Part shown: piece by piece, positions 3,666-36,830 of the stretch | Position numbering within the stretch: position 1 is the stretch's first letter | Layout: each line of letters begins with the position of its first letter | Source of the DNA: a bacterium | Lineage (GTDB): Bacteria; Actinomycetota; Acidimicrobiia; Spongiisociales; ZC4RG35 | Direction of reading: 5' to 3' | NCBI GenBank assembly: GCA_028819345.1 | Contig: JAPPLW010000054.1 | Location: forward strand, 39,706-96,256 | DNA: 56,551 bases | The notes under the pieces: model-generated | The model's database searches: none | What the model was told of the DNA's origin: nothing | Seen by the model: only the letters and a program-made list of their open reading frames with translations | Made by a program: the position numbers and the translations under genes

Positions 3666-4913
3666 CTAGGCCAGGCGATACTCGAGCTGCGGGCTGGGGC
3701 CCCAGTGGCTCTTCATGTCGCCGACGTCCCGTCCGGCTTGGGCGTAGCCGCCCTCCGACGAGATGGCCAGCATTCCACGGACATAGACCTTCTTGACATC
3801 GCCCACGGCGTTGAGGTCGGCGAGCGGATCGCCTCCCAAAGCCACGATGTCGGCGATCTTGCCCGGCTCCACTCTGCCCAGGTCCTCTTCGAGGCCCAGC
3901 ACCACCATGGCGCGGCTGGTTGCCGCGTTGAGAACGTCCCTGGCGTCGGGGACCACCCCGATCTTCACCATGAACTTCATCTCCTCGACGATGGCGTAGT
4001 GGGGCACCGCCGGGCTTCCGGCGTCCGTGCCGAATATGATCCGGCCACCGGCCTTGGCGAAGTTGATGTTGCCCTCGAAGCGGGCTGTGTCATGCATGCT
4101 TGCCTTGCGGGCCTTGAGGTCGGTCTCGCTCATCCCGTACAGGTGGCCGAACAGTGCCTGCTGCACATTGGGGGAGTAGGTGGTGACGATGGGGATGTCC
4201 TTTTCCACCAGTTTCTCGATGGTCTTCATGGTCATCTGACCACCGTGCTCCACGCAGTCCACCCCGGCCTCCACCACCCGGTCGATGGCGTGGTCGAAAG
4301 TGGCGTGAGCGGTGACCTTCATGTTGTTCTGATGCGCTTCTTCGCACATGGCTTGCAACTCTTCGAAGGTGAACTGCTCTCTCACGTGGGAGCCCATGAT
4401 CTTGATCCACTTGGCGCCGGCCTTGAACTGCTCCCGGATGGCCTGGCGAACCCCGTAGATCCCGTCGGCTTCCCGACAGACCCACCAGGTGTGGCCGCCG
4501 GTGGTGCAGATCGCCCGTCCGTTGGGGAACAGGCGGATCCAGGGCGCCCAGCCGTTGTCGATGGCGTACTTGGCGTCGACGTTGGCATTGTTCATGCCCA
4601 GGTCGCGGATGGTCGTGACCCCCGCGGAGAGGGTGCGGTGGATGTTCATTATCGCCTTCATGGCGTTGACGGCGGGGGACTCATAGCCCTGCATCTCCAG
4701 GTCGTGGGTGCCGTCCCAGCCCAGGTGAACGTGGAGGTTCGCCAGGCCCGGGATGAGCCACATGCCGGATACGTCCACCACGTTGTCGCCCGGTTGGGGG
4801 TCCGACGCTCCTACCGCTACGATCCGCTCGGCCTCGATGGTTACGTCCTGTTGCTGGGAAGGCGTGTCGTCGTCGAGATTGACTACGACGCCACCTTTGA
4901 GAATTGTTCTCAC
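3666..4913 (-). CDS. Metal-dependent amidohydrolase (imidazolonepropionase/prolidase-like)
   Basis: Amidohydrolase-superfamily enzyme of the imidazolonepropionase-like/Xaa-Pro dipeptidase group, predicted cytoplasmic, acting on an amide or cyclic amide. The metal-site set is complete: HVHLG after an N-terminal beta-sandwich, Lys in KIMGSH, His in TAHATFDHA and VEHGG, and Asp in GTDAGS; a C-terminal GKIADIV strand closes the sandwich. I prefer the GTG at 4913 because AAAGGA lies a few bases upstream and the protein then begins with the usual RTILKGGVVV strand. An ATG at 4952 would add 13 charged residues and overlap the upstream gene by 14 bp. The substrate is unknown; position between the TIM-barrel gene and the hydantoinase-like gene suggests a shared pathway. 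Confidence 0.88.
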   Translation of the reverse strand: MRTILKGGVVVNLDDDTPSQQQDVTIEAERIVAVGASDPQPGDNVVDVSGMWLIPGLANLHVHLGWDGTHDLEMQGYESPAVNAMKAIMNIHRTLSAGVTTIRDLGMNNANVDAKYAIDNGWAPWIRLFPNGRAICTTGGHTWWVCREADGIYGVRQAIREQFKAGAKWIKIMGSHVREQFTFEELQAMCEEAHQNNMKVTAHATFDHAIDRVVEAGVDCVEHGGQMTMKTIEKLVEKDIPIVTTYSPNVQQALFGHLYGMSETDLKARKASMHDTARFEGNINFAKAGGRIIFGTDAGSPAVPHYAIVEEMKFMVKIGVVPDARDVLNAATSRAMVVLGLEEDLGRVEPGKIADIVALGGDPLADLNAVGDVKKVYVRGMLAISSEGGYAQAGRDVGDMKSHWGPSPQLEYRLA

Positions 4914-23961: not shown

Positions 23962-25479
23962 TCACGTGTCTTCGCTTGACACTCCGGCCATCATCAGGCC
24001 GATTCCCTGCCGATCGGCGTTCTCCGCATCCACCTCTCCCACGATACGACCCTCGTAGATGACTGCGATCCGGTCGGCCAACCCGAGGACCTCGTCCAGG
24101 TCTTCGGAGATGAGCAGGATGGCTACCGACTTGGATCCGCGCTGTTCGATGAGCCGGTCGTGGATGTATTAGGCGGCTCCGATGTCCACTCCCCGGGTGG
24201 GTTGGGAAGCCAGCAGCACCGACGGCGATCCGGAGAGTTCTCGGGCCAGGATCAGCTTCTGCAGGTTCCCTCCCGAGAGATTCGAGGCCGGGACGTCAAG
24301 TCCCGGGGTGGCCACCGAGAATTCGTCCACCAGTTGCTGGCTGCGTTGGCGGATCTCGCCGTTGCGGAGAAACCCCCGTCGGCTCATCGGTGGGTGGCGG
24401 TGGTTCACCAGGATCATGTTCTCGGAGACCGAGAAAGCCCCGATGGCGCCGTCCCGCTGGCGTTCCTCGGGAACGTAGGCCAATCCGGCGGCTCTGACCG
24501 CCGAGGGTTGCCGGCCGGTGATATCGGCATCGTCTACTTCAATGGTGCCCGACTCCGGCTTCCGGAGACCCGCGATGGTCTCGGCCAGTTCCCGCTGGCC
24601 GTTGCCGGAGACTCCGGCGATCCCCAGGATCTCTCCCTCCCGGACCGTCAGGCTCAGGTCCTGCAGGGCCGGCAGGCCTCGATCGCCCATCACGTTCAGG
24701 TCGCGGATGGTCAGCCGGGCCCTTCCGGTTTCCATGGGTGGTTTGTCGGGGGCGAGCCGCACCGGGCGTCCCACCATCATCGAAGCCAGCATCTCCCGGT
24801 TGGCGTCCTTTGCCTCCACTTCTCCCATCACCCGCCCATGGCGCAGGACGGTGATCCTGTCGCTGAGGGCCAGCACTTCATGGAGCTTGTGGGAGATGAA
24901 CACCAACCCCCGTCCATCCTCGGCCGTCTGCCGGAGGATCTTGAAGAGATGATCCACCTCGCCGGGGGTGAGCACCGCAGTGGGCTCGTCCAGCACCAGA
25001 AGCTTGACGTCGCGATACAGCGCCTTGATGATCTCGACCCGCTGGCGTTCTCCCACCGAGAGTTGCCAGATGTAGGCGTCCGGGTCCACCGCCAGGCCGT
25101 GGGACTCCGACAACTCTTCTATACGGTCGGATACGTGCCGCAGATTCATGCGCCCCCGCTTGGAGACGGTGCCCATCGCCACGTTCTCGGTGACCGTGAG
25201 AGAGGGCACCAGCATGAAGTGCTGATGCACCATCCCGATCCCGTGGTTTATGGCGTCGGTAGGGCTGGTGATCCGGCTCGGCGCCCCCTCGATGAGGAGT
25301 TCGCCCTCGTCGGGCTGGTACAGCCCGTAGAGGATCTTCATGAGGGTGCTCTTCCCGGCGCCGTTCTCTCCCAACAGGGTGTGCACCTCCCCGGCGCGCA
25401 GATCGAAGTTGACTCGATCATTGGCGAGCACGCCGGGGAAGCGCTTGACGATTCCCCGCATCTCCAAGAGTTGCGTCAT
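23962..25479 (-). pseudogene. ABC transporter ATPase (BMP/nucleoside type) interrupted by an in-frame TAA
   Basis: A sugar/nucleoside-type ABC ATPase with two nucleotide-binding halves. The first has Walker A GENGAGKSTLMKILYG, signature LSVGERQR and Walker B LLVLDEPTAVL; the second has a degenerate Walker A (GVSGNGQREL) and the signature LSGGNLQKL. The open frame stops at TAA (24169-24171) right after QPTRGVDIGAA, where relatives usually read GVDxGA-Glu-(Tyr/Phe)-Ile. In the same frame the sequence continues YIHDRLIEQRG, LLISEDLDEVL, LADRIAVIYEGRIVG and GLMMAG for 68 codons to a TGA at 23962. That is the normal C-terminus of the family. One G-to-T change (GAA to TAA) explains it. It may be a real nonsense allele or a sequencing error; without the tail the second half lacks its switch/H-loop region. 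Confidence 0.85.
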
Positions 25480-25512: not shown

Positions 25513-27537
25513 CTAGTTGGCGCCGGTGTCGATGGCGCCGGTGATGATTCCCTGAACCACCTCATTGATCCCGGCGAACATCTCCGGCGGTATGTCGAAT
25601 GCCGGGTTGGGCTCCAAGACCAGTCCGCCGTTGGCGAGGTTGATCTCGTAGGCCTTGCCGCCCAGGGAACCGGCGGAGATGTCGGCGATGATCTGTCGCA
25701 GGACGACTTCCCACTTGTACACCTGGGAAGCGACCACCAGGTCGGGAGCCAGGGCGGTCTGGTTGGCCTGGGTGCCGAACCACAGCGCGCCGGCGCTCTG
25801 GGCGACTCCCACCGCTCCGACCACCATCTGGGCCGATCCGGTCAACACGTCTGCGCCGGCCGCGATGTGAGCCTGGGCGGCTTCGGAAGCCAACGCCACG
25901 TCACTGAACGAGCCGATGTAGTTGATGTTCACCGTCACGTCAGGACCGGTGGCCACCGCGCCGTTGTGGAACCCGTCCACGTACAGCTTGGCGTCTCCCA
26001 CCTCGATGGGACCGACCACTCCGATCACTCTCGATTGGGACATCAACGCAGCCGCCACGCCCATCACGTAGCCTCCCTGGTCGGAGGCGGCGGTGTAGGC
26101 GGAGACGTTGGGCTGACCCAGCGTGTCGGCGGAGGTGCCCCAGGCGAAGGCGGTGTCGGGGAAGTCCCCGGCGATCTCCTGTAGCGATCCTCCGTACTGG
26201 GAGCCGTGGGCTATGACCAGGTCGTAGCCTTCCTCGGCGTACCCGCGGATCGCCGCGGCGGCGTCCTCGACGATGAAGGTCCCGTCGGTGATGGCCACCT
26301 CGGTGCCTGGGTTCTCTGCCACGATCACGTTCACCGCGTCCACGATGCTCTGCGTGAACGCCAGGTCGTTGGAAGCGCTCGGAGCAACCACCGCGATCCG
26401 CAACGGCTCCATCGGCTCGGGCGGCGCCGCCATGGCTTCCATCGTGTTGATGGCGCCACTGACGATTCCCGAGATCACGATGTCTGCGCCGGCTCTCACC
26501 TCGGCGGGGAGGTTGAATCCGTCGTTGAACTCGATCACCAACCCGCCGTTGGCGAGGTTGATCTCGTAGGCCTTGCCGCCCAGGGAACCGGCGGAGATGT
26601 CGGCGATGATCTGTCGCAGGACGACTTCCCACTTGTACACCTGGGAAGCGACCACCAGGTCGGGAGCCAGGGCGGTCTGGTTGGCCTGGGTGCCGAACCA
26701 CAGCGCGCCGGCGCTCTGGGCGACTCCCACCGCTCCGACCACCATCTGGGCCGATCCGGTCAACACGTCTGCGCCGGCCGCGATGTGAGCCTGGGCGGCT
26801 TCGGAAGCCAACGCCACGTCACTGAACGAGCCGATGTAGTTGATGTTCACCGTCACGTCAGGACCGGTGGCCACCGCGCCGTTGTGGAACCCGTCCACGT
26901 ACAGCTTGGCGTCTCCCACCTCGATGGGACCGACCACTCCGATGACACTGGACTGGGAAAGGGCCGCGGCCAATACTCCCATCACAAAACCGCCCTGATC
27001 GGAGGCGGCAGTGTAGGCGGAGACGTTGGGCTGACCCAGCGTGTCGGCGGAAGTGCCCCAGGCGAAGGCGGTGTCGGGGAAGTCCCCAGCGATCTCCTGT
27101 AGCGATCCTCCGTACTGGGAGCCGTGGGCTATGACCAGGTCGTAGCCTTCCTCGGCGTACCCGCGGATCGCCGCGGCGGCGTCCTCGACGATGAAGGTCC
27201 CGTCGGTGATGGCCACCTCGGTGCCTGGGTTCTCTGCCACGATCACGTTCACCGCGTCCACGATGCTCTGCGTGAACGCCAGGTCGTTGGAAGCGCTCGG
27301 AGCAACCACCGCGATCCGCAACGGCTCCATCGGCATGTCTTCCTCGGGCATGTCCTCTTCGGGCATGTCCTCTTCGGGCATGTCCTCTTCGGGCGCCTCG
27401 GCGGCGGTCGTTTGAGGAGCGGCAGACTCGGTGGTGTCCGGCTCCTCCGCGTCGTCTCCGCAGGCGGTGGCTATGAGGGCCAGGACCGCCAAAACGGCCA
27501 AAAGCCGGGCGAAGCCCGGTTTCCTATAGGTTTGCAT
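25513..27537 (-). CDS. BMP-family substrate-binding lipoprotein with tandem duplicated binding domain
   Basis: The substrate-binding component of an ABC importer of the BMP/PnrA (Med) type, usually for nucleosides or related bases. The start is the ATG at 27537 after AAGGAG. A lipoprotein signal follows (LLAVLAVLALIATACGDD, Cys near residue 24), then an acidic linker with four EEDMP repeats. Unlike normal family members of about 350 residues, this protein has 674 and contains two complete BMP domains, each starting MEPLRIAVVAPSASND, with a 306-residue period. The domains are almost identical except for one short patch (GGFVMGVLAAALSQSS against GGYVMGVAAALMSQSR) and the C-terminal ends. It sits between the ATPase and the permeases. 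A two-domain receptor or a misassembled pair of adjacent genes are both possible. Confidence 0.85.
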   Translation of the reverse strand: MQTYRKPGFARLLAVLAVLALIATACGDDAEEPDTTESAAPQTTAAEAPEEDMPEEDMPEEDMPEEDMPMEPLRIAVVAPSASNDLAFTQSIVDAVNVIVAENPGTEVAITDGTFIVEDAAAAIRGYAEEGYDLVIAHGSQYGGSLQEIAGDFPDTAFAWGTSADTLGQPNVSAYTAASDQGGFVMGVLAAALSQSSVIGVVGPIEVGDAKLYVDGFHNGAVATGPDVTVNINYIGSFSDVALASEAAQAHIAAGADVLTGSAQMVVGAVGVAQSAGALWFGTQANQTALAPDLVVASQVYKWEVVLRQIIADISAGSLGGKAYEINLANGGLVIEFNDGFNLPAEVRAGADIVISGIVSGAINTMEAMAAPPEPMEPLRIAVVAPSASNDLAFTQSIVDAVNVIVAENPGTEVAITDGTFIVEDAAAAIRGYAEEGYDLVIAHGSQYGGSLQEIAGDFPDTAFAWGTSADTLGQPNVSAYTAASDQGGYVMGVAAALMSQSRVIGVVGPIEVGDAKLYVDGFHNGAVATGPDVTVNINYIGSFSDVALASEAAQAHIAAGADVLTGSAQMVVGAVGVAQSAGALWFGTQANQTALAPDLVVASQVYKWEVVLRQIIADISAGSLGGKAYEINLANGGLVLEPNPAFDIPPEMFAGINEVVQGIITGAIDTGAN
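25628..27330. repeat. 918-bp-period tandem duplication inside the BMP gene
   Basis: Two direct copies, 25628-26412 and 26546-27330, run about 785 bp each and are offset by exactly 918 bp. Reading them side by side I find only about three single-base differences, apart from one block of roughly 58 bp (26027-26084 against 26945-27002) with 19 mismatches. Identity ends abruptly at CCGCCGTTGGCGAGG on the C-terminal side. Confidence 0.85.
27334..27393. repeat. Four 15-bp repeats encoding the EEDMP linker
   Basis: Four in-tandem 15-bp units (three identical CATGTCCTCTTCGGG and one variant) encode the acidic linker between the lipobox and the first binding domain. Because the unit is a multiple of three, slippage would change linker length without shifting frame. 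Confidence 0.85.
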
Positions 27538-27592
27538 TGGTTCTCCTTCTTGGTTTGATAGGGTCGGTTGTTGTCGAGAAAGAAACTTCATT

Positions 27593-28534
27593 TCATCCCC
27601 CCCTGATAAAGGGCTTGGTGAGGGCGGTGGGCGCCCGGAAACGTCGGGCCGCCACCACCAACGCCAGCACCGTTATCACCGCCGGGATCATGGCGGCCAG
27701 GTCGGATGCGCCCAGCGGGATGATTCCCCTGGTCTTGAGCAGTAGCACGACCGCCGACACCATCCCGTAGACCAGTGACCCGGCCATCACCCCCAGTGGT
27801 CTCCATGCGCCGAAATAGACCAGGGCAATGGCGATGAAACCCTGGGCATTGGTGAGGTTCTGCTGGAAGATGCCCAGCCCGATGGCCAGCACCGCCCCGG
27901 CCGCCCCGGCCAGGATTCCTCCGATTGTCACCGCCGCGTAGCGAACCCTCGTCACGCTGATGCCCTGTGAGTCGGCCGCCTCGGGGTTTTCTCCCACCGC
28001 CCGGATGTTCATCCCGAACCGGGTCCGATTGATAATCACCGTGGAGACCGGGATGGCCAGGAATGCCAGGTAGATGGGGATGCTGTGATTGAAGAACAGG
28101 TCTCCCAGAACGGGGATCTCCGAGAGCAGGGGGATGGGGGACTTCTGGAACGAGGCGGCTGGCAGGGGAGTTCCGACCAGCTTCTGGAACAGCAGGTCAC
28201 TCATCCCCAGCCCGAACAGGTAGACGCCTATCCCGCTGATTCCCTGTTCAGCCAGAAGAGAGACGCTGATCACTGAGGACAGCAGTCCCAGGACCAGTCC
28301 GACTCCCAGTCCGACTGCTAACCCGAGCCAGGGACTCTGTGTCTTGAGCGTGGTGAAGTAGCCGCCGAAGGCCCCCAGAAGCATGATGCCGTCCACCCCC
28401 AGGTTGAGCACCCCGCTCCGTTGCCCGAAGGCCTCTCCCAGCGAGGCCAGCAACAGGGGGACCGCCAGACGGATCCCGGACGAAAGGGTGGCCACGATGA
28501 CCGTGGCGCTGAATATGTCAGCCATGGTCGTCAT
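27593..28534 (-). CDS. ABC transporter permease (BMP/nucleoside type, YufQ/NupQ-like)
   Basis: A 313-residue inner-membrane permease with eight to ten hydrophobic helices. Family-typical segments include RLAVPLLLASLGEAFGQRSGVLNLGVDGIMLLGA near the N-terminus and the cytoplasmic coupling loop NIRAVGENPEAADSQGISV. It forms the channel with the neighbouring permease and pairs with the ATPase and BMP lipoprotein. The start at 28534 overlaps the end of the upstream permease gene by 17 bp; an ATG three codons on is an alternative. Gene order permease, permease, binding protein, ATPase is an ordinary set for BMP-type importers. Confidence 0.9.
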   Translation of the reverse strand: MTTMADIFSATVIVATLSSGIRLAVPLLLASLGEAFGQRSGVLNLGVDGIMLLGAFGGYFTTLKTQSPWLGLAVGLGVGLVLGLLSSVISVSLLAEQGISGIGVYLFGLGMSDLLFQKLVGTPLPAASFQKSPIPLLSEIPVLGDLFFNHSIPIYLAFLAIPVSTVIINRTRFGMNIRAVGENPEAADSQGISVTRVRYAAVTIGGILAGAAGAVLAIGLGIFQQNLTNAQGFIAIALVYFGAWRPLGVMAGSLVYGMVSAVVLLLKTRGIIPLGASDLAAMIPAVITVLALVVAARRFRAPTALTKPFIRGG

Positions 28535-29708
28535 CCTCTCCGGATGGGGGCGAGTCGGACTCGTCGGCTTCCGATCCGGCCGCGGCTATGGAAGGGACGC
28601 TTCGCTCCTCTCGCTCTTTCAGTTGACGGCGGTACCGATCAAGACTCACCACGAACAGGACAACCAGTCCGTTGAGCGCCAGCACCAGGGCGGTAGGGAC
28701 CTGTGCCGCTCTCTGCAGGGCGATGGCGCCCACCAGCAATCCTCCGAACAGGAACGATGAGGGAATCGTCCAGAGGGGGTGCAGCCCACCGAAGAGCGCG
28801 GTCACTATCCCGTTGAACCCCGCGCTTCCCGTGAACCCGATGGTGCTGCCGTCGGTGACCATCCGGTGTCCCTCGGAACCCAGGACCAGGATGGCTCCCG
28901 CCAGGCCCGACATCGCTCCGCTCAGGGTCAGCGCCCACACCACGTTCCTCTCCACCGACATCCCCGCATAGCGGGCTGCGTCGGCCGAGAGCCCCACGGC
29001 CCGGAGGCGGTAGCCGGAAGTGGTCCGCCAGAGCAGCAGGTACACCAGGACGGCCGCCGCCACCGCGATGACCGGTCCTATGTGAAGTCGCCCGCCCTCC
29101 ACGAACAGGGGCAGGTCGGTGCTCTCGGGCAATCGGGCGGTCTGGGGTATCCGGGTGCCCCGTTCAATCTCCATCGGGTCGATGAGAGGGTCTCTGAGCA
29201 GCCAGTTCATCGCCTGAACCGCCACCACGTTGAGCATGATTGTGCTGAGGATCTCGTTGACCCCGAAATACGCTTTCAGCGTTCCGGGAATAGCGCCCCA
29301 GAGCGCGCCTCCCGCTACTCCGGCCCCCAGCGCCAGGGGCAACGCCGTCCAGGCCGGGACATCCGTCATTCCCAGGGCCGTGATGGTGGAGGCCAGCGCA
29401 CCCGCCACCATCTGTCCTTCGCCTCCGATGTTGATCACATTCGCCCGGAAGGCGATGGTGATGCCCACTCCCACCAGGAGGAGGGGAGTCGACTTCAGAG
29501 CCGTCTCCACGAGGGCGCCCGAACTTCCGAACGCGCCCTTGGCCATTGCCCAGAAGCCGGTGAAGGGATTGGCGCCCAAGGCCGCCAGCATGACCGCTCC
29601 GATCGCAAACGCTCCTAGCACCGCCAGCGCCGGCACGCTGTAGGACAGGAGGTGGGTACCCAGCCGAGAACGCCGCACCGCGGCCTCCGAGGTTTCCCGA
29701 TTACTCAT
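28518..29708 (-). CDS. ABC transporter permease (BMP/nucleoside type, YufP/NupP-like)
   Basis: A 396-residue permease and heterodimer partner of the protein at 27593. The helices are clear, and the coupling loop GYRLRAVGLSADAARYAGMSVERN carries the EAA-like motif. The N-terminal ANVINIGGEGQMVAGALAS segment matches the family pattern INIGxEGQ. The C-terminal tail is rich in Glu, Asp and Ser and ends in EDDDHG, longer than usual. The gene lies 85 bp downstream of the regulator in the same direction. That gap holds a small CCAGC-GCTGG stem, but I see no convincing promoter. Confidence 0.9.
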   Translation of the reverse strand: MSNRETSEAAVRRSRLGTHLLSYSVPALAVLGAFAIGAVMLAALGANPFTGFWAMAKGAFGSSGALVETALKSTPLLLVGVGITIAFRANVINIGGEGQMVAGALASTITALGMTDVPAWTALPLALGAGVAGGALWGAIPGTLKAYFGVNEILSTIMLNVVAVQAMNWLLRDPLIDPMEIERGTRIPQTARLPESTDLPLFVEGGRLHIGPVIAVAAAVLVYLLLWRTTSGYRLRAVGLSADAARYAGMSVERNVVWALTLSGAMSGLAGAILVLGSEGHRMVTDGSTIGFTGSAGFNGIVTALFGGLHPLWTIPSSFLFGGLLVGAIALQRAAQVPTALVLALNGLVVLFVVSLDRYRRQLKEREERSVPSIAAAGSEADESDSPPSGEDDDHG

Positions 29709-29793: not shown

Positions 29794-30402
29794 CTAATCA
29801 CCGCGAATGGCGTTCAGATAGTTGTAAATCGTAATTCGGCTGACTCCCATCGCCTCGGCCACGGTCTCCACCGATTTGCGGATCAGGAAGACGCCTTGTT
29901 CGTCGAGAATGCGCACCGCGGCCTGCTTTTTTTCCCTGGGCAAATCGCCGAGCTTTCCCTCCATCCGGCTCTCCACGGCCGCCACCATCCGCTCCACTGC
30001 TCCATGGATGTCTTCAGGACGGGCCAATCCGATCATGGCCTGGTTCCAAACCGCCGGTTCATCGGAGGCCACATCGTGGCTGTGGGACGGGCTCGGGGTG
30101 TGGCCGAGCGCCTCGGAGACCGGGCCGACCGAGGTATCTGCGGGGCTTTTGGTCAGGGTTATGGAGATCCGGGAAGCTCCTTTATCGAAGGCGGATCTGA
30201 GAACTGTTGGCAACACCGAAGTTATAGTCTCGTAGTCGCCATCCACGGTGTTTCCGAACGGCCCCATTGTCATCTCCAGACCCTGGCCCTGCAGGATTTC
30301 CTGCGATCCCAGCACATGTGGTCCCGGGTTTCCTTCCTCGAATGGCTCGACCAGGAACTCAAGCCGACACATTTCCTGGTGTGGGGGCTGCTCAGAGGTC
30401 AT
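29794..30402 (-). CDS. One-component regulator: thiamine-binding-fold domain fused to YheO-type HTH
   Basis: A 202-residue predicted transcription factor. Residues about 8-85 (CRLEFLVEPFEEG, GPHV, GLEMTMGPFGNTVDGD, GASRISITLT) match the thiamine-binding/DUF77 fold of MTH1187 and YkoF, small proteins that bind thiamine or its hydroxymethylpyrimidine part. The C-terminal 60 residues (EKKQAAVRILDEQGVFLIRKSVETVAEAMGVSRITIYNYL, given as a region, about 157-197) match the helix-turn-helix of YheO-type regulators. The ATG at 30402 has no clear ribosome-binding site; the frame is open further upstream but runs through the divergent promoter. It heads the transporter operon and faces the D-carbamoylase/xdhD operon, so it is the obvious local regulator. 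Sensing of a pyrimidine or ureide ligand is inference. Confidence 0.82.
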   Translation of the reverse strand: MTSEQPPHQEMCRLEFLVEPFEEGNPGPHVLGSQEILQGQGLEMTMGPFGNTVDGDYETITSVLPTVLRSAFDKGASRISITLTKSPADTSVGPVSEALGHTPSPSHSHDVASDEPAVWNQAMIGLARPEDIHGAVERMVAAVESRMEGKLGDLPREKKQAAVRILDEQGVFLIRKSVETVAEAMGVSRITIYNYLNAIRGD

Positions 30403-30425
30403 GGGTAACCAAGTCTGCTTCTCAT

Positions 30426-30455
30426 TTGACAATTTGTAAAGGCGTATGGTACAGT
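30426..30455 (+). promoter_or_regulatory. Promoter of the D-carbamoylase operon, with possible operator
   Basis: TTGACA (30426-30431, a perfect -35), an 18-bp spacer and TACAGT (30450-30455) form a sigma-70-type promoter. The expected start point is about 30462-30464, on the ATG at 30464, implying a leaderless mRNA. The AT-rich imperfect palindrome TTTGACAATTTGTAAA overlaps the -35 and is a candidate site for the divergently encoded regulator. Confidence 0.6.
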
Positions 30456-30463
30456 CGGATGGC

Positions 30464-31405
30464 ATGAGCCGCAACTTAAAGCTGGGAGCAGCCCAACTCG
30501 GTCCCATCGCCCGGGAGGACACCCGCAAGGACGTCGTCGAACGGCTCTTGAATCTGCTGGCGGAAGCCGCTGATCGGGGAGTGGAGTTGTTGGTATATCC
30601 CGAGTTGGCGTTGACCACCTTCTTCCCGCGCTGGTATCTGGAGGACCCCGATGAGATGCTCTCCTTTTTCGAGGAGGAGATGCCGTCTGAGGACACCCAG
30701 CCTCTCTTCGATGAAGCGGCCCGGCTGGGCATCGGCTTCTGCCTCGGGTACGCAGAGTTGCACACCGATTCGGATGGAGTGACCCACCGCTACAACACCC
30801 AGATGCTGGTGGAGCGGGACGGCTCGGTGGTGGCCAAGTTTCGAAAGGTCCACATACCCGGACATGCCGAGGTTCAAGGGTGGAGGCCCTTCCAGCACCT
30901 CGAGCGGTACTACTTCGAACCGGGGCCCGACGGCTTCGGGGTGTGGCGGGCGTTCGGGGGCATTGTGGGGATGGCGATCTGCAACGACCGGCGGTGGTCG
31001 GAGACCTACCGCGTGATGGGATTGCAGGGAGTGGAGTTGATCCTGATCGGCTACAACACCCCTTCCTTCTACGCTCCCGATCCACAGCAGAATGCTCTCC
31101 AGAACTTCCACAACCATGTGGTGATGCAGGCGGGCGCCTACCAGAACGGATGCTGGGTTGTGGGAGTGGCCAAGGGGGGGATCGAAGAGGGGATAGACCA
31201 CATCGCCCAGAGCGTGATCATCGCCCCTTCCGGCCAGATCGTCGCCCAGACGATCACCACCGGTGACGAGTTGATAGTTGCCAACGTAGACCTGGACTTC
31301 TGCTCCTTCTACAAGGACACCGTGTTCAAATTCGATCTGTACCGGATACCGGAGCACTACCGCCTGATCAGCCAGACCAGAGGAGCAATTCTCCCCCCGG
31401 AGTAG
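30464..31405 (+). CDS. N-carbamoyl-D-amino-acid amidohydrolase
   Basis: A nitrilase-superfamily hydrolase of 313 residues that converts N-carbamoyl-D-amino acids to D-amino acids, CO2 and ammonia. It aligns along its length with the well-studied Agrobacterium D-carbamoylase pattern: YPELALTTFFPRWY (Glu), KFRKVHIPGHAE (Lys), AICNDRRWSETYRVMGL (Cys), PFQHLERYYFEPG and MQAGAYQNGCWVVG. I start it at the ATG at 30464, the predicted transcription start, rather than an upstream in-frame codon at 30446 that would lie inside the -10. It is the first gene of the plus-strand operon and is followed 3 bp later by the xdhD-like gene. Usual partners are hydantoinases; a hydantoinase-like gene is present at 2243. 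Confidence 0.92.
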   Translation: MSRNLKLGAAQLGPIAREDTRKDVVERLLNLLAEAADRGVELLVYPELALTTFFPRWYLEDPDEMLSFFEEEMPSEDTQPLFDEAARLGIGFCLGYAELHTDSDGVTHRYNTQMLVERDGSVVAKFRKVHIPGHAEVQGWRPFQHLERYYFEPGPDGFGVWRAFGGIVGMAICNDRRWSETYRVMGLQGVELILIGYNTPSFYAPDPQQNALQNFHNHVVMQAGAYQNGCWVVGVAKGGIEEGIDHIAQSVIIAPSGQIVAQTITTGDELIVANVDLDFCSFYKDTVFKFDLYRIPEHYRLISQTRGAILPPE

Positions 31406-31408
31406 ATC

Positions 31409-34000
31409 ATGACTCTCATCGAAGCGCCGCCGACAGTCGCCTTCCGTCTCAACGGGGAGGATGTCGCGGTCCGGGGCGACCACCCCCACCTGCTGGCTGC
31501 CCTGCGCGAGGAGTTGGGGGTCATCTCGCCGAAAGACGGGTGCGCTCCTTCCGGACAATGCGGGTGCTGCACGGTGCTGGTGGGTGGCCGTGCAGTGGTG
31601 AGTTGCCAGGTTCCCCTCACCAGGGTGAAAGGCAAGGAAGTCATAACCGTGGAGGGACTCGATCCGGTGGAGAGGGACCGTATGGCTCGCGGCTTCGCGG
31701 CCACCGGCGCTCTGCAGTGCGGGTTCTGCACTCCGGGAATCGTGATCCGGACCAAGGCTCTCATCGACCAGAAGGGGTCATCGCTGGACCGGAAGACCAT
31801 CAATGGCCGGCTTGGCGCCCATCTGTGCCGCTGCACCGGCTACACCAAGATCGTGGAGGCCATCGAATTGTTGGCGTCCGGGGACCCGATTCCCACCGTC
31901 GCCCGCCCCGGCGGAATCGGGAAGGACGGCGCCAAGTACGAGGCGCTGGAACTGACCCTGGGGGACCGCCCCTACATCGACGATCTGATGTCTCCGATGA
32001 TGCTGCATGCCGCCGTCCGCCTCACCGACCACTCCCGGGCCGACGTGTTGGCGATCGACACCTCTCCGGCTGAGGCTTATCCGGGGGTCGTGCGGGTCAT
32101 TACGGCCGCCGACGTCCCCGGAGAGCTCCGGGTCGGGCTGATCCACAAGGACTGGCCGGTATTCATCCCGGTGGGGGGTCGTACCTCCTATTCGGGAGAT
32201 GTCTTGGCGATGGTGGTGGCGTCCGACGTGCAGACCGCCCGGGAAGCAGCCCAGTTGATCGAGGTCGAGTACCGGGTGTTGACCCCCATCAGCGATCCCG
32301 AGCAGGCCCTGGCGTCGGAGGACGCGGTGTGGGGGCTGGACAGCAATCTCCTGTCGCTCTCGGTGTACAAGCGGGGAGACGTGGAGGAGGCGCTTTCCAA
32401 CTCGGCGCACACAATTCATGAGACATTCAAGACCCAGCGGGTGGAGCACGCCTTCCTGGAGCCGGAGTCGACCGTGGCGGTTCCCCTCCCCAACGGCGAC
32501 CTCCATGTCTACTCGGGAGGCCAGGGAGTGTGGGACGACCGCAACCAGATCGCATCGGTGCTGGGGATGGATCCCTCACGGATCACCGTGGAACTGGTCT
32601 CCAACGGAGGAGCCTTCGGAGGGAAGGAGGACATGGCCAACCAGGCCCAGACCGCTCTCGCCGCCCACCTTCTGGGCAGGTCGGTGAAGTGCACCCTCAC
32701 CCGGGAGGAGTCCCTGCACATCCATCCCAAGCGCCACCCCATCCGGATCGAACTGTGGGCGGGCTGCGACGAGGAGGGGAAGCTCACCGCCCTCAAGGCG
32801 CGAATGCTGGGAGACTCCGGACCGTACGCCTCGGTGGGGATGAAGGTGCTGGAGCGGGCCGCCGGACACGCCAGCGGCCCATACGTGGTGGGCGCCATAG
32901 ACGTGGAGGCCGCCGCGGTTCGCACCAACAATTCGGTATGCGGGGCGTTCCGTGGCTTCGGGGCCAACCAGGCCCAATTCGCCATGGAGGGAGTCATGGA
33001 CCGCCTGGCGGAGAAGGCCGGGATCAGCGGCTGGGAGATGCGGGCTCGAAACGTGATCGAGCCGGGGGTGGTCTGGGGGCCGGGGCAGATCATGGATGAG
33101 GGATCGCGAGGAGCGCGGCGTTGCCTGGAGGCCGTAAAGCCCCATTACGACCGTGCGATCGAAGAAGGAAAAGCCGTTGGGGTGGGGCTCGGGTTGAAAA
33201 ACTCCGGTCTGGGCAACGGCTTTCGTGAAGTATCCCGTTCCGTAGTGCGGTTCCGTCTGGACGGGACTGTGGAAGTCCGCCACTGCTGGACCGAGATGGG
33301 CCAGGGCGTGCACACCGTCGCCCTGCAGGTGGCGGTGGAGGAGTTGGGCATCGATCCCGACCGGATAGAGGTCATGGTCGACACCTCCCGGGAACTGGGC
33401 GCCGGGCAGACCACCGGCTCCCGGGGGACGCTTATGGTGGCCGGCTCGGTGGCGGACGCCTGCCGGAAGGCGTTGGAGGGAGGTTGCGAGCCGGGAGTGG
33501 ACTATCACGGCGTCTGGGTGGTGGACTGGACGAACAGTCTTAAGGAGAAGGTTGAGAACCCGGTGATCCATTCGGCCTTCGGCTACGCCAGCCAGTTGGT
33601 GATCGCCGATGCGGAGACCGGAAAGGTCGAGAAGGTGGTGGCCGCCCATGACGTCGGGAAAGCGGTGAACCCGGCCTTGTGCGAAGGCCAGATCGAGGGC
33701 TCCATCCACATGGGCCTGGGATATGCCCTATCGGAGGACTTTCCCTGTGACTCCGACAGCCGACCCACCAACATGACCCTGCGCAGCCTGGGGATCATCC
33801 GCGCCAAGGACATGCCGGAGGTGGAGGTGATCCTGGTGGAGGAGCCCCAGCCGGACTCTCCTTACGGCATCAAGGGGGTGGGAGAGATCGGTTTGGTGCC
33901 GACCGCCGGGGCAGTAGCCGCGGCCCTGCACCAAGTGGATGGGGTCTGGCGTAACCAGTTGCCGTTCAACAAACATCACCCCCTCGGACGAAGGCGCTGA
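31409..34000 (+). CDS. xdhD: XdhD-like molybdenum hydroxylase (2Fe-2S and Mo domains fused)
   Basis: A predicted molybdenum-containing hydroxylase of 863 residues acting on a purine or similar N-heterocycle. Residues about 10-160 form the [2Fe-2S] part with two clusters (CAPSGQCGCC, and CGFCTPG with CRCTG). The rest is the molybdopterin domain with SNGGAFGGKED, GAFRGFGANQ, EMGQGVHT, GAGQTTGSRG and the active-site Glu in KGVGEIGLVPT. This fused layout without a FAD domain is that of E. coli XdhD, one of the yge/ygf purine-degradation proteins, and the following genes are ssnA- and ygfK-like, in the same order of function. No separate FAD subunit (YgfM-like) is in the window. It is slightly shorter than the roughly 950-residue E. 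coli protein. Confidence 0.88.
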   Translation: MTLIEAPPTVAFRLNGEDVAVRGDHPHLLAALREELGVISPKDGCAPSGQCGCCTVLVGGRAVVSCQVPLTRVKGKEVITVEGLDPVERDRMARGFAATGALQCGFCTPGIVIRTKALIDQKGSSLDRKTINGRLGAHLCRCTGYTKIVEAIELLASGDPIPTVARPGGIGKDGAKYEALELTLGDRPYIDDLMSPMMLHAAVRLTDHSRADVLAIDTSPAEAYPGVVRVITAADVPGELRVGLIHKDWPVFIPVGGRTSYSGDVLAMVVASDVQTAREAAQLIEVEYRVLTPISDPEQALASEDAVWGLDSNLLSLSVYKRGDVEEALSNSAHTIHETFKTQRVEHAFLEPESTVAVPLPNGDLHVYSGGQGVWDDRNQIASVLGMDPSRITVELVSNGGAFGGKEDMANQAQTALAAHLLGRSVKCTLTREESLHIHPKRHPIRIELWAGCDEEGKLTALKARMLGDSGPYASVGMKVLERAAGHASGPYVVGAIDVEAAAVRTNNSVCGAFRGFGANQAQFAMEGVMDRLAEKAGISGWEMRARNVIEPGVVWGPGQIMDEGSRGARRCLEAVKPHYDRAIEEGKAVGVGLGLKNSGLGNGFREVSRSVVRFRLDGTVEVRHCWTEMGQGVHTVALQVAVEELGIDPDRIEVMVDTSRELGAGQTTGSRGTLMVAGSVADACRKALEGGCEPGVDYHGVWVVDWTNSLKEKVENPVIHSAFGYASQLVIADAETGKVEKVVAAHDVGKAVNPALCEGQIEGSIHMGLGYALSEDFPCDSDSRPTNMTLRSLGIIRAKDMPEVEVILVEEPQPDSPYGIKGVGEIGLVPTAGAVAAALHQVDGVWRNQLPFNKHHPLGRRR

Positions 34001-34001
34001 C

Positions 34002-35018
34002 ATGAACCGGGAAACCCCCGGGTTGGTCTGCGCTCATCATCATCTCTACTCGGCCCTGGCCAGGGGCATGCCCGCCCCGCCCCGCGTTCCCACGAGCTTC
34101 GGCGAGATCCTGGAGCAGGTCTGGTGGCGTCTGGACGTCGCCCTGGATGACGAGATGATCTACTGGTCGGCCAAACTGGGCGCGCTGGAGGCCCTGGAGC
34201 GGGGCACTACGGCCATCGTGGACCATCATGCCTCCCCTTCCGCGATCGAGGGTTCCTTGTCCTTGATCGCCGACGCATGCGAGGAGGTGGGAGTGAGGGT
34301 GGCGTGCGCCTACGAGGTCACCGACCGGCATGGGCCGGACGGCGCCCGCCGGGGCTTGGAGGAGAACCGTCGGTTCCTCTCCGAAGGAGGGAAGGGTTGG
34401 GTGGGTGCCCACGCCTGCTTCACCCTTTCCGATGAGACCCTGGACGAGGTGTGCGGGCTGGCCGACGACCTGGGGGTCGGTGTTCACATCCACGTGGCGG
34501 AAGGGATTGAGGACCCCGACGCCGGGCGGCGCCTCGAGTCCAGGTCCCGGGAGAACTGGCTCCTAGGGCATTGCGTTCACCTGGACAGGGACTTGAAGGG
34601 AGTCGTGCTGCACAATCCCGAGTCCAACCTGAACAACGGAGTGGGTTACGCTCGGCCGACCAGGTTTGCAAACCCGGTGGCGCTGGGGACCGACGGGATC
34701 GGGGGCGACATGCTGGGTGCCTTCCGGGCCGCCTATCTCCGGATGCGGGAGGATGATGTCACGTCGTCTCCCGAGATTGCCTGGTCGTGGTTGGAGACCG
34801 GCTGGGAACTGTTCCCCGAGGCTCGGGAGGACCGGGTGGTCTGGTCGCATGATCCCATGGACCCCTGGCACCTGGCTTTCACTCCCGGCGTGCGGCCTCT
34901 CCGGGTGGAGGTGGGAGGCGAAATTGTTCTTTCAGAGGGTCGGCCTACCCGGGTCGACCCCGACGAAGTGCGGGCCAAGGCCGCCGAACAGGCGGCCCGT
35001 CTCCATGCCCGCCTATAG
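34002..35018 (+). CDS. ssnA: SsnA-like amidohydrolase, lacking the N-terminal domain
   Basis: An amidohydrolase-superfamily protein of 338 residues related to SsnA, a putative guanine/aminohydrolase-type enzyme of purine breakdown. Matching segments include PGLVCAHHHLYSALARG, WWRLDVALD, IVDHHASPSAIEGSL, HIHVAEG, NPESNLNNGVGY and ALGTDGIGGDM. Metal-site His and Asp residues are retained. E. coli SsnA has about 440 residues. Here the first 55 or so, which form half of the beta-sandwich, are missing, and the C-terminal ADL-type strand is also reduced. The ATG at 34002 lies one base after the xdhD stop, so no N-terminal extension is possible without entering that gene. It may be a compact active form or a decaying copy. 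Confidence 0.8.
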   Translation: MNRETPGLVCAHHHLYSALARGMPAPPRVPTSFGEILEQVWWRLDVALDDEMIYWSAKLGALEALERGTTAIVDHHASPSAIEGSLSLIADACEEVGVRVACAYEVTDRHGPDGARRGLEENRRFLSEGGKGWVGAHACFTLSDETLDEVCGLADDLGVGVHIHVAEGIEDPDAGRRLESRSRENWLLGHCVHLDRDLKGVVLHNPESNLNNGVGYARPTRFANPVALGTDGIGGDMLGAFRAAYLRMREDDVTSSPEIAWSWLETGWELFPEAREDRVVWSHDPMDPWHLAFTPGVRPLRVEVGGEIVLSEGRPTRVDPDEVRAKAAEQAARLHARL

Positions 35019-35039: not shown

Positions 35040-36830
35040 ATGTCTTCCGGCGCCGATCCCCTAACTCCTTATCCCTTGGACATGCTGTTGGGGAGGGTGG
35101 CTGACGAATGGGAGTCCCGCCAGCGGATCTTCGACCTGCCGTCGGCCCGAGTTTGGAAACGGCCGTCCGATCTCGACCTCGGGTTCTCCTTCCTGGGCCG
35201 TCCCTGCGCCTCCCCGGTGGGGCCGGCCGCCGGGCCCCACAGCCAGATGACCCAGAACATCGTGCTGTCCTGGCTGGGCGGGTCGCGGCTCTTCGAGCTG
35301 AAGACTGTCCAAGTTCTCGACCGACTGGAGATAGCCCGTCCCTGCATCGACATGCAGACCATCGGCTACAACATCGAGTGGAGCCAGGAGTTGCGGGTGG
35401 AGGAGTCTCTGATCGAGTACGTGAAGGCCTGGATGATGATCAGGATTCTCAACAACTGGGAGCCGGTGTCCGAGTTGGTGGGCCCCGATCCGGGCCCCTT
35501 CGTCTTCGACATGTCGGTGGGCTATGACCTGGCGGGGATCTCCACCGAGAAGGTCTCCGACTTCATCGTGGAGATGAAGAACGCCAAGGACCGGATCGAC
35601 TCCTTCCGGCCCCAGATACCCGAGCCGTTCGCCCATCTTCGGGACCTCGACTTTCCCTCACGGATAGCCGACACGGTGACGCTCTCCACCTTCCACGGCT
35701 GCCCGCCGCACGAGATCGACGCGATCACCAAGCATCTGATGACCCGTCACGAGTGTGATGTGATCGTCAAGCTCAATCCCACCCTGCTGGGAATCGGGAG
35801 AGTGCAGGAGATCCTCCACGAGACCCTCGGTTACGAGCATATCCCGCTTCTGCCCCAGGCTTTCGTGGACGACCTGCAGTTCGACCAGGGCTTGGAGTTG
35901 ATCGAGGGGTTGCGGGAGTTCGCCCGCCGTCACGGCCGTCGGTTCGGGATCAAGCTCAGCAACACCCTGGTGGTGGGCAACGACAAGGGGTGGATGCCCG
36001 ACGATCCCATGTACCTCTCCGGGCCTCCCCTGCATGTCATAACCTCGACGCTCCTGGACGAGTTGATCTGCGCCCTGCCCGGTGTCTTCAACCTGGCAGG
36101 TCACGGAGGCGATGTCCAGGTGAGCTTCTCGGCGGGCGTCAGCAAGGAGAACCTGTCCGACACCCTGGGGATGGGGGTGGCGCCGGTCACGATCTGCTCG
36201 GACCTGCTCAAGCCCGGCGGCTATGGTCGTTTGGCGCCGATGCTCAACCGGTTGGCATTGGAGATGCGCCGGGTGGGCGCTACGGACCTGGCCTCCTGGC
36301 ATCACAACAAGTGGGAGGCGGCGCGCGCCAGCGGCTACCGGGGACCGGTGGAGGCCCACGTGATGGCCATGAGCGGCGGCAAGGAGACCGGTTTCTACCA
36401 TCTCTCAGGGAACGAGAAGCTGCCTCGCGCGGTGGACAAGGTCCTCCAGATGTGGGGATGTGTGGCCTGCAACTTCTGCGTCACGGTGTGTCCCAACGAC
36501 GCGGTCATCCGCCTGGCCACCGTGCCCGAGCTCCAGGATGAGCTGACCGACCGCTGGCAGTACTTCATCCTGGCCGAGTTGTGCAACGAGTGCGGGAACT
36601 GCCTGACCTTCTGCCCCGAGGAGGGCGATCCGGCGGTGCTCAAGCCCCGGCTGTTCGTGGACCGCGACCGGTTCGAAGCCGACCAGGAGCAGGGATTCTT
36701 CGTCACGCCCACCGCCGACCGGCTGGGGGTGCTGGCCAGCCCCGGCTACGAGAAGGAAGTGGCGCCCCTCACCGCCATGCTCAACGGCGCCGAGGGTTTA
36801 CCGCTCCGGACCGCGGAACTGCCGACCTAG
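35040..36830 (+). CDS. ygfK: YgfK-like iron-sulfur oxidoreductase, compact form
   Basis: A 596-residue relative of YgfK, the putative selenate reductase/purine-degradation electron-transfer subunit. The N-terminal two thirds form a dihydroorotate-dehydrogenase-like barrel: PVGPAAGPHSQMTQNIV, FELKTVQVLDRLE, TLSTFHGCPPHEIDAI, VKLNPTLLG and CSDLLKPGGYGRL. Two ferredoxin-type [4Fe-4S] motifs follow (CVACNFCVTVCP and CNECGNCLTFCPEEG). E. coli YgfK has about 1030 residues and carries a GltD-like FAD/NADPH domain between these parts; that domain is absent here. Electrons from XdhD may therefore leave by a different carrier. It begins 21 bp after ssnA with AAGGGAG and ends the operon. Confidence 0.88.
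   Translation: MSSGADPLTPYPLDMLLGRVADEWESRQRIFDLPSARVWKRPSDLDLGFSFLGRPCASPVGPAAGPHSQMTQNIVLSWLGGSRLFELKTVQVLDRLEIARPCIDMQTIGYNIEWSQELRVEESLIEYVKAWMMIRILNNWEPVSELVGPDPGPFVFDMSVGYDLAGISTEKVSDFIVEMKNAKDRIDSFRPQIPEPFAHLRDLDFPSRIADTVTLSTFHGCPPHEIDAITKHLMTRHECDVIVKLNPTLLGIGRVQEILHETLGYEHIPLLPQAFVDDLQFDQGLELIEGLREFARRHGRRFGIKLSNTLVVGNDKGWMPDDPMYLSGPPLHVITSTLLDELICALPGVFNLAGHGGDVQVSFSAGVSKENLSDTLGMGVAPVTICSDLLKPGGYGRLAPMLNRLALEMRRVGATDLASWHHNKWEAARASGYRGPVEAHVMAMSGGKETGFYHLSGNEKLPRAVDKVLQMWGCVACNFCVTVCPNDAVIRLATVPELQDELTDRWQYFILAELCNECGNCLTFCPEEGDPAVLKPRLFVDRDRFEADQEQGFFVTPTADRLGVLASPGYEKEVAPLTAMLNGAEGLPLRTAELPT

Follow-up and report, generated by a model that had tools for sequence, protein, structure and literature searches.

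The gene at positions 29794–30402, on the minus strand of the window (the whole stretch of 56,551 nucleotides that was analysed, from a bacterium of the Acidimicrobiia), encodes a protein in which a DUF77/YkoF-like domain is fused to a YheO-type helix-turn-helix, and we consider it likely, at a probability of roughly 60%, that this protein would act as a local repressor of the surrounding locus for purine and uric-acid degradation and uptake, and would leave its operator on binding a catabolite of purines or urate. The first-pass annotation of the same DNA had proposed a one-component regulator whose sensor is a pyrimidine-binding fold, recruited to sense a catabolite. A DUF77 fold and a YheO-type helix-turn-helix, encoded beside purine genes and next to a likely operator, agree with the first half of that proposal, whereas the gene contexts would favour purine or urate catabolites over HMP, thiamine or any pyrimidine as the ligand.

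The reading frame runs on the minus strand from the ATG at 30402 to 29797, specifying 202 amino acids, and is closed by the stop codon at 29794–29796. Pfam searches recovered both domains above their curated cut-offs: HTH_22 (PF13309) at residues 136–197, with 70.1 bits (cut-off 29.6, E = 1.7e-19), which bears out the assignment of a YheO-type C-terminus, and Thiamine_BP (PF01910) at residues 18–83, with 29.3 bits (cut-off 24.9, E = 8.3e-7). Each of these two models found a single place in the whole 2.8-Mb genome, and in both cases it was this gene. From the Pfam match, profile comparison and structural model we place the N-terminal domain at about residues 11–86 (30145–30372, minus strand) and, from Pfam, the C-terminal domain at residues 135–201 (29800–30000, minus strand); residues 87–134 (30001–30144, minus strand) form a linker or the remnant of a middle region. 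The full-length AlphaFold model contains two confident domains joined by a disordered linker at residues 93–129, where the pLDDT falls below 50. Within the HTH_22 domain, the recognition-helix region VSRITIYNYLN is almost invariant. A Pfam search of the regulator for a PAS_6 domain, the usual companion of the YheO-type helix-turn-helix, gave no match. Mis-assembly as the source of the fusion was ruled out, because six genomes of the genus share it (61–100% identity) and other lineages have fusions as well.

Because the Thiamine_BP score of the window protein is weak, the assignment of the N-terminal domain was checked in three further ways. Homologues reach about 30–48 bits with the Thiamine_BP model; a profile of 30 N-terminal domains matched the solved DUF77 proteins 1yqh (the best, E = 3.5e-8), TM0486, MTH1187 and YkoF; and an AlphaFold model of the domain (mean pLDDT 89), which has the ferredoxin-like order beta-alpha-beta-beta-alpha-beta, gave DUF77 proteins at all of ranks 1–14 in a Foldseek search of the PDB, with YkoF from rank 15. 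The claim of the first-pass annotation that the N-terminal part has this fold was thus upheld by profile and by structure. The regulator has a single DUF77 domain, according to both Pfam and the full-length model, and not the tandem pair of YkoF. The family carries the signature EPFxEGxPGPHV ... GPFG, which departs from that of the solved DUF77 proteins.

The catabolic operon, which is divergent from the regulator, begins on the plus strand with a carbon-nitrogen hydrolase (PF00795, 30464–31405) and continues, on the same strand, with a single-chain xanthine dehydrogenase (XDH) that has both the Fe-S and the Mo domains (31409–34000; near TIGR03311, at 818.7 of 830.45 bits), an SsnA-like amidohydrolase (33999–35018) and a YgfK-like reductase comprising the N-terminal part and a 4Fe-4S domain (35040–36830). 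Downstream of the regulator, and like it on the minus strand, an importer operon starts with two ABC permeases (BPD_transp_2; 28518–29708 and 27593–28534), followed by an internally duplicated BMP/PnrA-like substrate-binding protein (25513–27591) and an ABC ATPase (24169–25479); beyond these genes lies a second carbon-nitrogen hydrolase (PF00795, 23070–23915), which in relatives forms one operon with the regulator. The neighbours had earlier been read as pyrimidine- and purine-like catabolic genes; the purine part of this description held, and the locus is now described as a reductive uric-acid cluster (XDH, SsnA and YgfK) with a BMP importer and two carbon-nitrogen hydrolases. XDH, YgfK and SsnA are the enzymes that mark the reductive pathway of uric-acid degradation, which has been demonstrated in Escherichia coli and Clostridioides difficile (PMC12507026). 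HyuA, YgeY and YgeW were not recognised beside the window cluster, and the two carbon-nitrogen hydrolases, which differ from each other and flank the cluster, might stand in place of YgeY and YgeW, removing both ureido groups.

Two features of the importer genes were observed in passing. The ATPase gene has an in-frame TAA where four relatives of the genus have a glutamate codon, and homology runs on in frame for about 60 residues beyond it; the gene is intact in the relatives compared, and the TAA of the window genome would be due either to a nonsense mutation or to an error of assembly. The BMP/PnrA-like protein consists of two copies of about 300 residues in one chain, which are 94% identical to each other here and 54% identical in genome G106, a pattern that suggests homogenisation or recent duplication.

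The divergent region at 30403–30463 had been singled out by the first-pass annotation as the place to look for DNA binding, and it does hold a likely operator, a conserved palindrome at 30426–30440 that reads TTGACAATTTGTAAA on the plus strand and TTTACAAATTGTCAA on the minus strand. This 15-bp palindrome, TTKACAnnnTGTMAA, is common to the regulator/catabolic intergenic regions of Acidimicrobiia, and the window site is the sole exact match to TTKACANNNTGTCAA in the whole of its own genome. Within the order, 47 of 138 genomes contain the exact pattern, compared with five for a reversed control. It was found in 43 of the 61 genomes with the regulator and in 4 of the 77 without it (p = 9e-17), and, when the genomes from which the motif had been recognised are left out, in 21 of 31 and 4 of 77, respectively (p = 3e-11). 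The genomes are related to each other, so that in these and all other operator p values independent events are counted too generously. The possibility that the motif is a by-product of the pathway was ruled out by a comparison confined to XDH-bearing genomes, in which the exact site is present in 40 of 56 with the regulator and 1 of 31 without it (p = 1.4e-10); the site is therefore tied to the regulator, and not just to the presence of the pathway. The exact site is absent from 16 XDH-bearing genomes that have the regulator, in some of them through a degenerate site alone. When named loci were scanned with a weight matrix, 47 of the 52 that have purine genes contained a site, as did 2 of the 26 that lack them (p = 4e-13). 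The matrix was made from sites picked by eye, including a few taken from later loci, so that these counts, and the one for the short fusions given below, have less independence than the comparison across the order.

Sites lying away from the regulator precede XDH, ABC-importer and carbon-nitrogen hydrolase genes. A further site, TTTACACAATGTCAA, was observed in the genus members G108, G109 (twice) and G110 (loci L084, L085, L086 and L087, near 3816–3907), between an FAD/GCV_T demethylase-like gene and a divergent operon for a corrinoid protein, a pterin-binding protein and RACo; to judge from this arrangement, the regulon may extend to one-carbon demethylation.

Relatives of the regulator were found in 61 of the 138 genomes of the order. 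Eight of the 61 have one full-length fused match (the six of the window's genus, together with G040 and G127), and in nearly all the remaining ones the match is split between two neighbouring reading frames that are out of phase: a DUF77 protein of about 80 amino acids and an HTH_22 protein of about 120, the second start overlapping the first stop, mostly by four bases of the ATGA type. Programmed frameshifting or stop read-through between the halves was ruled out, as the second reading frame has its own ATG, GTG or TTG at the stop of the first; both of the possible relative frames were seen (-4, -8, -11 and -1), as in ordinary overlapping genes. A scan of named genomes gave 79 loci, of which almost all belong to Acidimicrobiia or to other Actinomycetota, in three architectures: two-gene pairs, long fusions of the window type, with a linker of 43–88 residues, and short fusions of about 155–175 residues in total, with a linker of 10–18. 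The short-fusion group has the operator site, by the weight matrix, at 30 of 31 loci beside catabolic enzymes. The middle region may possibly derive from PAS_6, on a resemblance noticed by eye, but profile comparison aligned the helix-turn-helix alone.

Since most relatives in the order encode the halves as adjacent overlapping genes, the partnership of sensor and DNA-binding protein is probably older than the fusion in the window. On a tree of 122 members, made by a quick maximum-likelihood method in which deep branches are weak, the architectures require six changes, the least possible being two; all short fusions group together, and five changes are needed for the long fusion, two of them forced by well-supported branches, so that fusion probably arose more than once. 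The genomic contexts change only twice on the same tree, the minimum for three states.

The first of these contexts is that of the window: XDH, SsnA and YgfK adjoin the module in most Acidimicrobiia relatives, often with the BMP ABC importer, and the arrangement recurs across the order in two-gene and fused forms, as well as around most fused loci elsewhere. The second, found in Streptomyces-like and two other actinobacterial genomes, is that of uricase, 5-hydroxyisourate hydrolase (HIUase) and OHCU decarboxylase. In Streptomyces-like genomes OHCU decarboxylase and HIUase follow immediately downstream of the pair, and homologues of uricase, OHCU decarboxylase and HIUase surround all six loci of this type that were examined, including a fused form beside a uricase-domain protein; in Streptomyces coelicolor, SCO6209–6211 are the trio uricase, OHCU decarboxylase and HIUase (PMC4991794). 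In the third, mainly from Ilumatobacteraceae, the pair lies near pantothenate kinase (CoaA) and methionine aminopeptidase (MAP), names that were read from the sequences with no profile search, and purine genes are absent. Two-gene loci from the range L153–L212 have this neighbourhood, with a DNA methylase as well, and neither purine genes nor the operator. One of the pairs that group with the Ilumatobacteraceae-type clade, L211, comes from a metagenome-assembled contig labelled Bifidobacterium breve, a record that is probably mislabelled or contaminated.

The pairs of the uricase context and of the CoaA/MAP clade have a nearly identical recognition helix, with upstream regions that lack the TTKACAnnnTGTMAA palindrome; therefore either these pairs have other operators, or operators at another place, or the rule that we derived is incomplete. 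At the Streptomyces uricase pairs a search for this palindrome found instead a different, TTCCGTATTGCGGAA-like one, which possibly belongs to another regulator, of the divergent genes. Conserved palindromes of this TTCCGTATTGCGGAA type were observed in L214–L217 and in the 3-kb loci L118–L125, between the Streptomyces-like pair and the divergent genes upstream of it (a TIM-barrel isomerase in L214).

The putative operator in the window overlaps a sigma-70-like promoter of the catabolic operon, predicted from a consensus match only (30426–30455, plus strand), with TTGACA at -35 (30426–30431, within the operator), an 18-nt spacer and TACAGT at -10 (30450–30455). Such a promoter would initiate transcription right at the ATG at 30464, making the message of the first carbon-nitrogen hydrolase leaderless. 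Because TTGACA is itself the -35 consensus, part of the conservation of this half-site could be due to the promoter; the conservation of the second half and the link of the site with the regulator speak against this as a full explanation.

We propose that the HTH_22 domain, as a dimer, would bind the palindrome over the -35 element and repress the operon for the carbon-nitrogen hydrolase, XDH, SsnA and YgfK. It would probably repress its own gene too, as suggested by the short, shared intergenic region (30403–30463). The DUF77/YkoF-like domain would be the sensor, with a pocket that takes a catabolite of purines, be it urate, xanthine or some product of the reductive pathway, and its occupation would bring the protein off the DNA and allow the genes to be expressed. 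In the two-gene relatives the overlapping, probably co-translated sensor and DNA-binding proteins would act as a complex, which the window genus has as one chain. Urate, its precursors or its early products are our best guess for the ligand, because they are the common denominator of both purine contexts.

Repression with release by ligand is the simplest reading, since a dimer at -35 should block RNA polymerase. The operator evidence would be identical for an activator that, with ligand bound, recruits RNA polymerase to the catabolic promoter from the same palindrome, and the sequence data do not fix the sign of the effect. The usual position of an activator is at about -41.5 or further upstream, whereas this site has its centre close to -30 and takes in the -35 hexamer. 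The repressor reading also has a precedent among YheO-type regulators, in that deletion of cj1387c raises the expression of the adjacent gene product (PMC4519771). On these grounds we regard activation as unlikely, though it deserves to be kept in mind.

The role of the N-terminal domain could also be other than that of a purine sensor. Solved DUF77 proteins form oligomers, and the N protein of the two-gene form could be a mere subunit, so that the domain might serve oligomerisation or protein–protein contact and the DNA-binding part might answer to another signal, such as a pathway enzyme, with no small-molecule ligand involved. The long conservation of EPFxEGxPGPHV and GPFG and the parallel with the ligand-binding YkoF suggest a ligand site, however, and make this rather improbable. 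Slightly more doubtful still is a true sensor of thiamine or HMP, in which the fold would still bind its original ligand and would link purine breakdown to the thiamine-pyrimidine status of the cell, AIR being a purine intermediate that thiamine biosynthesis also uses. The domain does belong to the Thiamine_BP family, and YkoF has been crystallised with thiamin (1sbr); but none of the operator and module loci examined had a recognisable thiamine gene, their surroundings are those of urate catabolism, by one or the other of two chemically distinct routes, or of the CoaA/MAP region, and, besides its different signature, the regulator misses the cut-off of the MTH1187-type thiamine-binding protein model in NCBIfam (TIGR00106; 20.1 against 54.7 bits). 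That the palindrome belongs to some other transcription factor travelling with the cluster, the DUF77-HTH protein doing something else, would fit an association that is correlational, yet is very improbable given that XDH genomes are nearly devoid of the site when the regulator is absent and that the single exact site of the window genome adjoins the regulator.

The repressor that we favour has partial counterparts in known systems. HucR and PecS, of the MarR family, are local, often divergently encoded repressors released by a purine ligand; the window regulator would work alike on its presumed ligand, and is of an unrelated family and fold. With the DUF77/Thiamine_BP proteins (PF01910; YkoF, TM0486, MTH1187 and 1yqh) it shares the fold of the N-terminal domain, at a significant profile match. 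It differs from them in that the domain is single (YkoF has two in tandem and no DNA-binding part), is fused to a DNA-binding protein or encoded by a gene overlapping that of one, and has another signature and a purine gene context. The C-terminal HTH_22 is homologous to that of YheO-type regulators (PAS_6 plus HTH_22; Cj1387c/CfiR and SLCG_7083), and profile–profile comparison with PAS_6-type proteins gave a probability of 99.3 with only the helix-turn-helix aligned; the window protein has a DUF77 domain in place of the PAS_6 sensor, and the long forms have a short middle region. Finally, homologues of XDH, SsnA and YgfK from the reductive uric-acid cluster (XdhD, YgfK, SsnA, HyuA and YgeW/Y/X), whose description mentions no regulator, adjoin the window regulator, and the window also has its two carbon-nitrogen hydrolases and the BMP-family ABC importer (PMC12507026).

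Neither one-component regulators nor DUF77 proteins are new in kind; their combination, the split form and the purine regulon appear to be new. We found no paper in the open-access literature that joins DUF77/YkoF to a helix-turn-helix or gives such a regulator to urate catabolism, and the novelty is provisional because the search covered open-access papers only. At slightly less than even odds, we suggest that these proteins form an undescribed actinobacterial regulator family, in which a DUF77/YkoF sensor of purines or urate, working as a split complex or, in several separate lineages, fused to its DNA-binding partner, would control uric-acid breakdown by the reductive route (XDH/YgfK/SsnA) as well as by the oxidative one (uricase). 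If this is true, a fold that has mostly been seen as that of orphan thiamine-binding proteins would acquire a sensing role, and bacterial one-component regulators a new sensor class. Uric-acid degradation in Acidimicrobiia would have its specific regulator and operator, with a likely counterpart in Streptomyces, and the series of split, long-fused and short-fused forms would be a natural system for studying how a ligand-binding partner turns into a built-in sensor domain.
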